NCBI GenBank assembly: GCA_949291545.1
Contig: CASEWB010000006.1
Coordinates: 248,001-312,000 of the forward strand
DNA from: an uncultured bacterium
GTDB lineage: Bacteria; Elusimicrobiota; Elusimicrobia; Elusimicrobiales; Elusimicrobiaceae
Direction of reading: 5' to 3'
Length of the DNA: 64,000 bases
Part shown: positions 1-61,069 of the stretch, in pieces
Layout of the letters: each line of letters starts with the position of its first letter
How positions within the stretch are numbered: the first letter of the stretch is position 1
Translations under genes and position numbers: made by a program
Notes under the pieces: generated by a model
Told to the model about the DNA's origin: nothing
The model's database searches: none
Seen by the model: the letters and a program-made list of their open reading frames with translations, nothing else

Positions 1-371
1 ACAGTTTTAGCCCGTTGCCGCGTACCATCTCCATTTGTAGTATAAGTTCCATCTAATGTAATATAAGTGCCATCCTCCCAAAAGAAATCGCGTCCCGCAT
101 AAGAGGAAATATAATCTTTAGGGATATCAACATCCAAATTGGACACCCCAGTATATTCGCCATTTGCCAAAAAATACCGCTCTTGCGCTTCATGCAGGGT
201 CCGCAGCATTGGAAGCATACGCATCACTTTGCTTTTTAGTACTGCAGTCTCATATTGCGGAACTGCTACTGCCATCAATACACCAATAATTAAAACGACC
301 ACTAACAGTTCTAAAAGCGTAAATCCAGCGTTTTTTTTCGTTTGAAAAGATTTTTGATAAATTTGATACAT
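1..371 (-). CDS. Type IV pilin-like protein, C-terminus beyond window
   Basis: The gene runs leftwards from an ATG at 371 and is cut by the window edge after about 123 codons. Residues 1-13 are a short basic leader (begins MYQIYQK), followed by the prepilin cleavage/methylation motif GFTLLEL with Glu at +5 and a 20-residue hydrophobic helix. That is the signature of type IV pilins and type II secretion pseudopilins. The part after the helix is a typical variable globular domain with an ANGEYTG-like segment. No Shine-Dalgarno is visible; a -10-like TAAATT lies exactly six bases ahead of ATG, so the message may be leaderless. The promoter and leader match those of the pilins starting at 48125 and 61035. 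Confidence 0.85.
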   Translation of the reverse strand, partial: MYQIYQKSFQTKKNAGFTLLELLVVVLIIGVLMAVAVPQYETAVLKSKVMRMLPMLRTLHEAQERYFLANGEYTGVSNLDVDIPKDYISSYAGRDFFWEDGTYITLDGTYTTNGDGTRQRAKT

Positions 372-377
372 AATCCC

Positions 378-403
378 AATTTATCAAAAAAAAAACAAAT
401 CAA
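378..403 (-). promoter_or_regulatory. Pilin promoter with poly-T spacer (10 T)
   Basis: On the minus strand a -35-like TTGATT (398-403) is followed by a 14-base spacer containing ten consecutive T (386-395), then TAAATT (378-383), six bases and the ATG at 371. The same arrangement with twelve T and a 16-base spacer precedes two other pilins. The shorter spacer should weaken this promoter, if the assignment is right. Confidence 0.5.
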
Positions 404-27157: not shown

Positions 27158-27706
27158 TTATTGGGATATTAAATAAAAGGATTTTGTCGAAGAGGTCATA
27201 GACGTATCCAGCGGACCATAACTTTTGCATATGGAAACTTGCAACGAATTGTTCTCCTCCGCCACACACCACTTTTTCCCGCGCAAATTCTCTGACCCTT
27301 CATTTAAAAGATGAAATTCTATATACAAAGGCATATTGGCCACTAGTGCCAAGGCCGAACAAGTACGAACTATTCCGCTCCCACTGTTTCCATCACTGCA
27401 CCTGTATTGAAAGTATTTTCCAGTCGGATTAACCTGGATATCCAATAAACTCAAATCATTTGCATAGGCGCCATTAGCCATATAATATACTTCCTGGGCA
27501 TCCACAATGGATTTTAAGGTGACAATCGCTTCGGTCGTGCGGCTTTTGGATACAGCCTTTTGGTATTGCGGCAACGCCACCGCCGCCAAAATACCAATGA
27601 TTAAAACCACCACTAATAACTCTATTAGCGTAAATCCGGCGTTTTTCCCCGCCGGATGGGTTTTTTGGCCCCGGCCAAGGGGGCGCCTAATACGGTGCTT
27701 ATCCCA
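27158..27706 (-). CDS. Type IV pilin-like gene without a recognisable start codon
   Basis: From residue GFTLIELL onward (codon at 27637-27635) this is a good pilin of about 160 residues, with the hydrophobic helix, [24 protein letters not shown] and four cysteines. Upstream, the frame stays open to a TAA at 27707-27709 but contains no ATG, GTG or TTG; it reads ...[15 protein letters not shown]. The first in-frame GTG (27613) lies inside the helix and would destroy the signal. The leader region appears to have been replaced by unrelated sequence that includes a repeat also found at 48.4 kb. It is probably silent, or uses a rare start. Confidence 0.65.
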
Positions 27707-47547: not shown

Positions 47548-48125
47548 TTAATAATTGGGGAAACGATAACAAGCTTGTCGTAAGGAGCCATACAGGCAGC
47601 TCCCTTCTGCCGCTCCCGTCAAACTCCGACACATTGCTTTTCCCCAGTCCGAATTAGGCATACAAAACACTGCACCGGACTGATTGCCAAAACCTGTTGC
47701 ACTGGAGGGGTTTAAAACCATATATAGAAAAAAGCCACGATTCGTACCAGATTCCAAAAACGGATTTGATGCTATGCCCCCATTTGCTGAAGTAAATTGC
47801 AACTCCGAATTAACAGTTAATTTGATATTGCAGCTATCACCTAACGAAGAGGCAGACTTATAGGCAATTCCAGCAGAATCAGCAAACATTTCTAAATTCA
47901 AGCAGGCGGCATTTCCTCCATCGAGAAGGTATAGGTCTCGTCCGCGTTTTAATTCTTTAAACCACGGCAACACTCGACTCACACGACTTTTCATTACCGT
48001 TTTTTCATATTGGGGTAACGCAATCGCCGCCAAAATGCCAATAATTAAAACGACCACTAACAGCTCTATCAGCGTAAATCCGGCGTGTTTTTCGTGGGGA
48101 GGGATTTTTGATAAATTTTGTCCAT
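47548..48125 (-). CDS. Type IV pilin-like gene, leader out of frame
   Basis: From [17 protein letters not shown] onward this is a standard pilin (about 170 residues; cysteines at CLNLE, CNIKL, CMPN, CRSL). The start expected by homology with two sibling pilins is ATG 48125, encoding MDKIYQKSLPTKN, but that frame then ends at a TGA. Compared with the siblings (..PKNAGF, TKKNAGF) there is a net two-base insertion (a repeated AC) between the leader and GFTLIEL. The only in-frame alternatives are TTG codons within the promoter. The gene is probably off, and restorable by losing two bases. Confidence 0.65.
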
Positions 48126-48159
48126 AGGCAAAATTTATCAAAAAAAAAAAACGAGTCAA
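48032..48159 (-). promoter_or_regulatory. Pilin promoter with poly-T spacer (12 T) and start-codon inverted repeat
   Basis: TTGACT (48154-48159), a 16-base spacer with twelve T (48140-48151), TAAATT (48132-48137), six bases and ATG 48125. The -10 region and the first codons form an inverted repeat (TTTTTGATAAATTTTG / CAAAATTTATCAAAAA) with the ATG in the loop. Confidence 0.5.
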
Positions 48160-48190
48160 GCCTAGCGCCTGGCCTCCCTTTCCTTCACCT

Positions 48191-48215
48191 GTTCACACGA
48201 CTAGTGGAGCCACAC
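48191..48215. repeat. 25-bp direct repeat, left copy
   Basis: Identical over 25 bp to 48496-48520; contains CACGACTAGTGG and the small inverted repeat GTGGAGCCAC. The pair brackets about 280 bp of hairpin-rich, gene-free DNA. Confidence 0.7.
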
Positions 48216-48322
48216 TGTTGCCGTACTGTCGCACTGTTTCAAAAGGAAAAAGTCGTTTCCGCTTATGTCGTTGTCGTTGCTGTTGCCGTTTATCCGGCCC
48301 TTTTGCCCCGTCTATAAAAAGC

Positions 48323-48495: not shown

Positions 48496-48520
48496 GTTCA
48501 CACGACTAGTGGAGCCACAC
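48496..48520. repeat. 25-bp direct repeat, right copy
   Basis: Identical to 48191-48215. Apart from the listed repeats and the terminator near 48.62 kb, I see no gene between 48160 and 48658. Confidence 0.7.
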
Positions 48521-48609
48521 GGCTCCCGCAATGCCGTGCTTCGGAGTGTGTTTTCCCGGGAGGCCAAATCCGGGCCGACCGTCCGCGCTGTTTTTTGTAT
48601 TCAAAACAC

Positions 48610-60462: not shown

Positions 60463-61035
60463 TCATTTAACTGTCGTGCTTGTTATTTTGTAAGCAGGCA
60501 CTCCTTTGTGTATTTGGACTGGCTCGTGTGTAAGATAACTGCACATTTTATTACGACTTTCCGTTCCGCCCATACAAAAGACATCTCCTACTTCCGCACC
60601 TAAGCTTTTAGCTGTAGAAGGGTTCACCGCCATAAATAACTGAGGGAAATCCGTCGTAGCCGCTATAAAAATACCGCCCCCGCCGGAACTAACTTGCCAC
60701 CCCGCAGGCGGGATTTTTATCTTACTATCGCAATAAATGTTGCTAGCATCATTTAAAACATAATCAGAATAAGTAATTCCCGCCTGCGACGCAAATGCCT
60801 CCAAATCCAAACAAATTGAATTTCCCCCATCTAAGACATAAAGGTCTCTCCCTTTCTTTAAGGCTTTTAATACGGGAAGGCGCTGTGTAAATTTGCTTTT
60901 TGTAACGGCTTTTTGATACTGCGGCAACGCTACAGCCGCCAAGATACCAATAATTAAAACAACGACTAACAGCTCTATTAGCGTAAAGCCGGCGTTTTTT
61001 GGCGCCAGAATAGTTTTTTGATAAATTTGTCTCAT
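60463..61035 (-). CDS. Type IV pilin-like protein
   Basis: A 190-residue pilin starting at ATG 61035 (MRQIYQKTILAPKNA), then [19 protein letters not shown] and PQYQKAVTKSKFTQR. The C-terminal domain contains the conserved-looking YVLDGGNSICLDLEAFA segment, also present in the pilin at 47548-48125 (YLLDGGNAACLNLEMFA), so the two are close paralogues. Five cysteines may form loops. Promoter as in the two sister genes: TTGACT, poly-T spacer, TAAATT, six bases, ATG. Confidence 0.92.
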   Translation of the reverse strand: MRQIYQKTILAPKNAGFTLIELLVVVLIIGILAAVALPQYQKAVTKSKFTQRLPVLKALKKGRDLYVLDGGNSICLDLEAFASQAGITYSDYVLNDASNIYCDSKIKIPPAGWQVSSGGGGIFIAATTDFPQLFMAVNPSTAKSLGAEVGDVFCMGGTESRNKMCSYLTHEPVQIHKGVPAYKITSTTVK

Positions 61036-61069
61036 AGACCCAATTTATCAAAAAAAAAAAACGAGTCAA
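61014..61069 (-). promoter_or_regulatory. Pilin promoter with poly-T spacer (12 T) and start-codon inverted repeat
   Basis: TTGACT (61064-61069), a 16-base spacer with twelve T (61050-61061), TAAATT (61042-61047), six bases and ATG 61035. TTTTTTGATAAATT (61014-61027) and its complement (61042-61055) form a 14-bp inverted repeat, with GTCT/AGAC inside and the start codon as the three-base loop. Confidence 0.55.

Follow-up and report, generated by a model that had tools for sequence, protein, structure and literature searches.

Poly-T promoter spacers in a large pilin gene family of uncultured Elusimicrobia: a candidate system of phase variation by slippage

The window analysed here, a 64-kb stretch of DNA from an uncultured Elusimicrobiaceae bacterium, contains three minus-strand sites at which a run of T residues lies between presumptive −35 and −10 promoter motifs, shortly upstream from an ATG codon and pilin sequences. 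The arrangement raises the question of whether slippage in the T run could change the expression of each pilin gene. An initial annotation had proposed such phase variation, describing pilins at 371, 48125 and 61035 that share a −35 box, a poly-T spacer, TAAATT, six bases and ATG, with tracts of 10, 12 and 12 T's and spacers of 14, 16 and 16 nt.

Three poly-T promoters and the genes downstream

The sequence bore out the common layout, and the tract and spacer lengths match exactly on the minus strand, where all three sites read CTTGAYTYG-T(10/12/12)-GA-TAAATT-N6-ATG. The features below were read directly from the sequence, from its translation, or from profile matches as indicated.

398-403, minus strand: −35 box TTGATT of the pilin promoter at 371 (TTGAYT in most genus-wide copies)
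386-395, minus strand: T10 tract of the same promoter, giving a 14-nt spacer; predicted weak or OFF, T12 being the mode elsewhere
378-383, minus strand: −10 box TAAATT of the 371 gene (TACACT, TACAGT and TACATT occupy the same place in other copies)
1-371, extending past the window edge, minus strand: type IV pilin gene, leaderless class (PF07963, E=1.3e-8)
48154-48159, minus strand: −35 box TTGACT of the 48125 gene
48140-48151, minus strand: T12 tract of the 48125 gene, 16-nt spacer
48132-48137, minus strand: −10 box TAAATT of the 48125 gene
48123-48125, minus strand: ATG whose frame differs from that of the pilin (the GFT codons follow after 44 nt, a distance not divisible by 3; from translation)
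47548-48081, minus strand: pilin coding region GFTLIELL..., a frameshifted copy with no in-frame ATG (PF07963 match, G000:C6:296016-296090)
61064-61069, minus strand: −35 box TTGACT of the 61035 gene
61050-61061, minus strand: T12 tract of the 61035 gene, 16-nt spacer
61042-61047, minus strand: −10 box TAAATT of the 61035 gene
60463-61035, minus strand: type IV pilin gene of 190 aa, leaderless class, intact (PF07963, E=3.7e-9)

Two bases separate the −35 box from the tract (TG in the 371 promoter, CG in those of 48125 and 61035), and in all three promoters GA separates the tract from the −10 box. The six bases between the −10 box and the ATG are GGGATT at 371, TTGCCT at 48125 and GGGTCT at 61035. 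A pilin N-terminus of the N_methyl family (PF07963) scoring above the cut-off, with the GFTLIE methylation motif and the hydrophobic helix of type IV pilins, lies downstream of every site, and the full product of the 371 gene in the genome is 185 aa long. At 48125, however, the pilin domain is found only as part of an open frame: the reading frame that begins at the ATG is MDKIYQKSLPTKNTPDLR followed by a stop, and the pilin frame upstream of 48081 is open only as far as a TTG within the −35 box. Since its leader is frameshifted, this gene is broken regardless of its promoter. Thus, pilin N-termini are present at all three positions named initially, but the ATG at 48125 does not belong to the pilin frame, and 371 and 61035 are the only intact pilin genes of this class in the window. 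The accompanying view that two of the genes would be near the promoter optimum and one well below it agrees with the T12 mode described below, except that the state of the 48125 promoter is moot.

The three tracts are the only T or A homopolymers of at least 9 nt in the 64 kb (10 overlapping matches, all inside them); dinucleotide-matched shuffles of the window led us to expect more such runs, not fewer.

A pilin-associated promoter core in two classes

The genome assembly (G000; 1.55 Mb in 11 contigs) encodes 68 N_methyl genes as judged by profile search, an unusually large pilin repertoire for its size. The exact element pattern occurs in 25 places corresponding to 24 loci, one probably being split over a contig end, and all of them are pilins. 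A blind count of T tracts of at least 9 nt returned 40, of which 36 lie immediately upstream of pilins and four (T9-T10) elsewhere. One further pilin (L006) has a T8 tract, bringing to about 37 of 68 the pilins that carry the element. Together, the exclusive presence of the window's homopolymers at these sites and the 36 of 40 tracts before pilins cannot be ascribed to chance. The genes are scattered singly over the chromosome, and their slippage-prone repeat, inside the promoter between the −35 and −10 boxes, ranges from T8 to T13. Also encoded are several type II/IV-secretion-type ATPases like those that power type IV pili; presumably, therefore, the pilins can be assembled.

A scan of the phylum with a broad version of the pattern matched 61 of 341 genomes, with high counts confined to two genera of one family, that of the window and a sister genus; a reversed control pattern was almost never matched. 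In some species the −10 box is TACAAT. Named carrier records belong to metagenome genomes of uncultured Elusimicrobiales or Elusimicrobium. No copies were found in viral contigs, and a literature search on these promoters in Elusimicrobium returned nothing.

Comparison of the copies separated two classes that share the −35 box, the T12 tract and the position of the −10 box, and differ in everything downstream. In the first, to which the window genes belong, the distance from the −10 box to the ATG is 6 nt in 200 of 208 copies and no Shine-Dalgarno sequence precedes the ATG, so that the mRNA is predicted to be leaderless. The second class reads TTGACTCG-T12-GA-TACACT (or TACAGT, TAAACT) and continues into a 5′ UTR, usually of 70-95 nt, with an AGGAG-type Shine-Dalgarno sequence and a short leader, MKKGFTLIE (L177-L185). 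In 24 of 27 copies of this UTR class, position 7 downstream of the −10 box holds a purine with a T before it, matching the T|ATG step of the leaderless class. A core common to two such different contexts is the best evidence that the boxes form a promoter. The candidate promoter is of the sigma-70 type, with a TTGACT or TTGATT −35 box, a TAnAnT-like −10 box whose variants (TAAATT, TACACT, TACAGT, TACATT, TACAAT) keep a fixed place, and a modal spacer of 16 nt. The usual sigma-70 spacer optimum is 17 nt; the spacer made by T12 is close to it. Upstream, conservation among copies ends at the −35 box; downstream, it ends beyond the leader and N-terminal helix.

Tract length and its variation

T12 accounts for 152 of 228 copies in the leaderless class (range T6-T17) and for 40 of 58 in the UTR class, about 67% overall. 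Off-length tracts (T8-T11 and T13-T17) make up a third of all copies and are found chiefly in genes whose reading frame is intact. Rates of change in tract and flanks were compared in near-identical pairs of genes taken from different genomes (at least 93% identity with the tract removed). Tract length differs in 14 of 19 such pairs, which are not independent and are mostly between species rather than within a strain. When only the 11 pairs exceeding 97% are considered, their flanks, about 7.3 kb in total, contain 7 gap columns, whereas 8 changes of tract length are found in the 11 tracts, each about 12 nt long. A 2.8-kb block shared by L078 and L100 is about 99.5% identical (about 88% beyond), with T9 versus T12 as its sole indel; L019 and L298 have T10 and T15. 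L006 and L091, with T8 and T10, share a pilin block of about 940 nt that is about 99.5% identical between flanks of about 80% identity:

L006 1190-2130, minus strand of the locus: near-identical pilin block, L006 versus L091 (alignment)

Invariant tracts would have spoken against the slippage proposal; instead, between genomes, the tract changes length at a far higher rate than the DNA on either side of it, as in promoters rendered phase-variable by simple sequence repeats.

We consider it probable that slippage resets the −35/−10 spacing gene by gene, resulting in phase variation of the pilins. About 37 of the 68 pilins in the genome would depend on promoters of the sigma-70 type with a spacer made up mostly of a run of T's; slippage during replication would add or remove T's, one or a few at a time, and a shift from the modal 16 nt would change or abolish the use of that single gene by RNA polymerase. 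In the main class, transcription is predicted to start on the A of the ATG, leaving the promoter alone to decide expression. The outcome would be independent, heritable and reversible variation of many pilins, possibly within one population. The prediction that T12-T13 are near the optimum while T10 and below are weak fits the data. At the level of sequence, the initial proposal finds good support in the boxes, which behave as a −35/−10 pair, in the position of the tract within the spacer and in the fast length change between genomes. Against it, a MutS protein is encoded in the genome and would lower slippage, and the preponderance of T12 could equally be expected from stabilising selection for a fixed spacer. 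The presence of MutS also led us to discard loss of mismatch repair as the driver of tract change.

The main alternative, which we regard as possible though rather unlikely, is indeed that T12 is a fixed structural spacer, offering RNA polymerase the best A-tract geometry or flexibility, with length variants representing mutational load. The strong T12 mode across many species would be accounted for, as would the purity of the tract next to YTYG bases that vary. Interrupted tracts are rare, about 5 of the 140 copies among those listed (about 4%), and four of the five (T5CTCT5, GT3CCTCT5, T6GCT6 and T3CT4GT5) keep a spacer of 17-18 nt; their mostly normal length suggests that length is under selection. 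Their very rarity tells against a merely structural role, since non-repetitive DNA would do for spacing, and so do the many off-length tracts in intact genes and the length changes between near-identical copies.

A second alternative, that the pilins were recently duplicated or exchanged and that the tract differences are homopolymer errors, appears very unlikely. Homopolymers are error-prone in assemblies, and the sequences being consensus metagenome assemblies, calls differing by one T may well be errors; however, differences of 2-5 T occur and are not easily explained in this way. Recent exchange is likewise real to judge from the alignments, the L006/L091 and L078/L100 blocks being islands of identity in diverged flanks that point to transfer between species. 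Yet shared ancestry would not account for conservation that stops at the −35 box and again past the leader and N-terminal helix, nor for one promoter core in two downstream contexts. An intrinsic terminator was dismissed because some copies lack the GC hairpin that many others have ahead of the tract, yet keep the T run, which where the hairpin is present comes 8 nt after it.

Spacer repeats that set promoter strength by their number have precedents. For the hif fimbriae of Haemophilus influenzae, van Ham is said to have described one in 1993 (cited in PMC11868660). The Neisseria porA and fetA promoters regulate surface structures in the same manner. In those cases one or two loci are involved and the repeats are TA dinucleotides or G/C tracts, whereas the tracts here consist of T's and recur in dozens of paralogues per genome. 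A close parallel is the vlp family of Mycoplasma hyorhinis, a multigene surface-protein family in which every member carries a promoter homopolymer (an A tract) and indels switch the transcription of each gene independently (PMC10502178). The Elusimicrobium-type pilins differ in having T's on the coding strand, genes scattered singly, starts that are predicted to be leaderless and a palindrome spanning the ATG. In sabA of Helicobacter pylori, slippage in a tract of about 13 T's close to an adhesin promoter alters RNA polymerase binding; the tract adjoins the −35 element and acts as a rheostat through alignment with UP-like elements (PMC4081817), and thus lies outside the spacer, whereas the pilin tract lies between the −35 and −10 boxes. 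The length of a promoter A tract also sets expression of the Neisseria meningitidis surface protein NspA (5A low, 6A high; PMC6389960), this being a single gene with a short tract, unlike the pilin family. The pilin element is therefore likely to represent a new variant of promoter-spacer phase variation, akin to that of the vlp genes. If so, uncultured gut bacteria would run dozens of pilins by independent promoter slippage, generating very many surface-pilus combinations within one population, and a mechanism known mainly from pathogens would extend to a phylum with almost no genetics. The model can be checked directly by counting T's in existing metagenomic reads. Beyond the initial annotation, the analysis adds the genome-wide scale, the leaderless arrangement and the start-codon palindrome.

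A palindrome spanning the start codon

Genes of the leaderless class carry a palindrome whose left arm, TTTTTGATAAATTTTG, is also the −10 region of the promoter; the reverse complement of this arm, CAAAATTTATCAAAAA, falls in codons 2-7 (leader MNKIYQK), placing the ATG in the loop. In the window the palindromes are:

351-390, minus strand: TTTTTGATAAATT...AATTTATCAAAAA, centred on the start codon of the 371 gene (fold z −3.7; covariation)
48105-48144, minus strand: palindrome with 16-bp arms, TTTTTGATAAATTTTG / CAAAATTTATCAAAAA, around the ATG of the 48125 gene (fold z −6.1)
61014-61055, minus strand: palindrome around the ATG of the 61035 gene, with inner GTCT-ATG-AGAC arms (fold z −4.2)

The corresponding RNAs fold at −11.4, −16.0 and −14.3 kcal/mol, respectively; by comparison, the first 60 nt counted from the ATG form weak structures (−2.2 to −8.7 kcal/mol). 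Over 176 distinct copies, 92.9% of the arm cells pair, as against 29-51% when the arms are slid by 1-3 positions. Changes in the left arm are compensated on the right arm in 38 of 67 cases (shuffle mean 5.5, maximum 14, in a control that leaves copy relatedness in). Pair A4-T25 has become C-G in 22 copies, mainly from species G043 and G044, turning codon ATT into ATG; in L335-L365 of these species, left arms GATACATT pair with right arms AATGTATC and the leader Ile is replaced by Met. Pair T9-A20 has become G-C in five copies, including window genes 371 and 61035. Why complementarity between the −10 region and the first codons should be maintained, even where this alters an amino acid, is puzzling. 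Conservation of the leader peptide IYQK was rejected as the cause of the right arm. Codon usage across the genome is far more mixed than in the arm, where TAT occurs 104 times with no TAC among the commonest codons, and CAA 107 times versus CAG once (genome TAT/TAC 57/43, CAA/CAG 52/48); moreover, in L282, L338 and L339 the ATG is lost and the region has become 5′ UTR, yet the palindrome is kept. Altogether, six copies (these and L110, L231 and L275) retain the palindrome with the ATG lost or replaced, by ATT, CTG, ATA, or a UTR with a Shine-Dalgarno sequence further on.

Neither the UTR class nor three leaderless genes (L257, L263 and L269) have the palindrome, and the putative promoter is thus not dependent on it. 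The same copies bear on the possibility that transcription starts upstream and that the T tract forms the 5′ arm of an RNA hairpin with the AUG in its loop, a translational switch. The fold scores and covarying arms would suit this scheme, which we nevertheless hold to be highly improbable, since the TTGACTCG-T12-GATACACT core precedes UTR-type pilins with no palindrome, leaderless genes can do without it, and no second conserved promoter was seen upstream, where the sequences diverge at the −35 box.

Under the favoured promoter-slippage reading, transcription starting at the ATG would leave the left arm out of the mRNA. Three roles for the palindrome may be envisaged. It could be a working part of the switch: the leaderless mRNA from the gene's own promoter, lacking the left arm, would be translatable, whereas read-through mRNA from upstream would carry both arms and hold the AUG in the loop, making the pilin truly OFF at the wrong tract length. 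If true, the combination of slippage-prone spacer, leaderless start and lock against read-through would be a new switch design; we judge this role quite unlikely, and the UTR copies that keep the palindrome without an ATG speak mildly against a pure AUG lock. Alternatively, it could serve a dimeric regulator as an operator with its centre at the start site, or be kept up neutrally through template switching between the arms, a process described elsewhere (PMC8794818).

Other damaged or rearranged pilin loci were noted. Out-of-frame leaders like that of 48125 occur in four copies of relatives (L069, L127, L172 and L242), several of them through one base in an A run of the leader, which suggests that such runs may be a second slippage site. 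On the minus strand at 27158-27680, the window contains a PF07963 pilin devoid of promoter and start codon; its junction, GGCCAAAAAACCC, has the appearance of a deletion between CAAAAA repeats, by which the entire T-tract element would have been lost. In L106, L122, L156 and L202, a T-tract promoter and leader remnant stand ahead of a Shine-Dalgarno-type pilin with its own TTATTACAC-like upstream sequence, an arrangement that may reflect modular recombination at the pilin N-terminus; in three of the four, the remnant is cut at a GGATTTAC site. Finally, an intergenic sequence, GTTCACACGACTAGTGGAGCCACAC, is repeated at 48190-48230 and 48498-48530 of the window, and variant forms of it precede many pilins, frequently together with a GC hairpin right before the −35 box.
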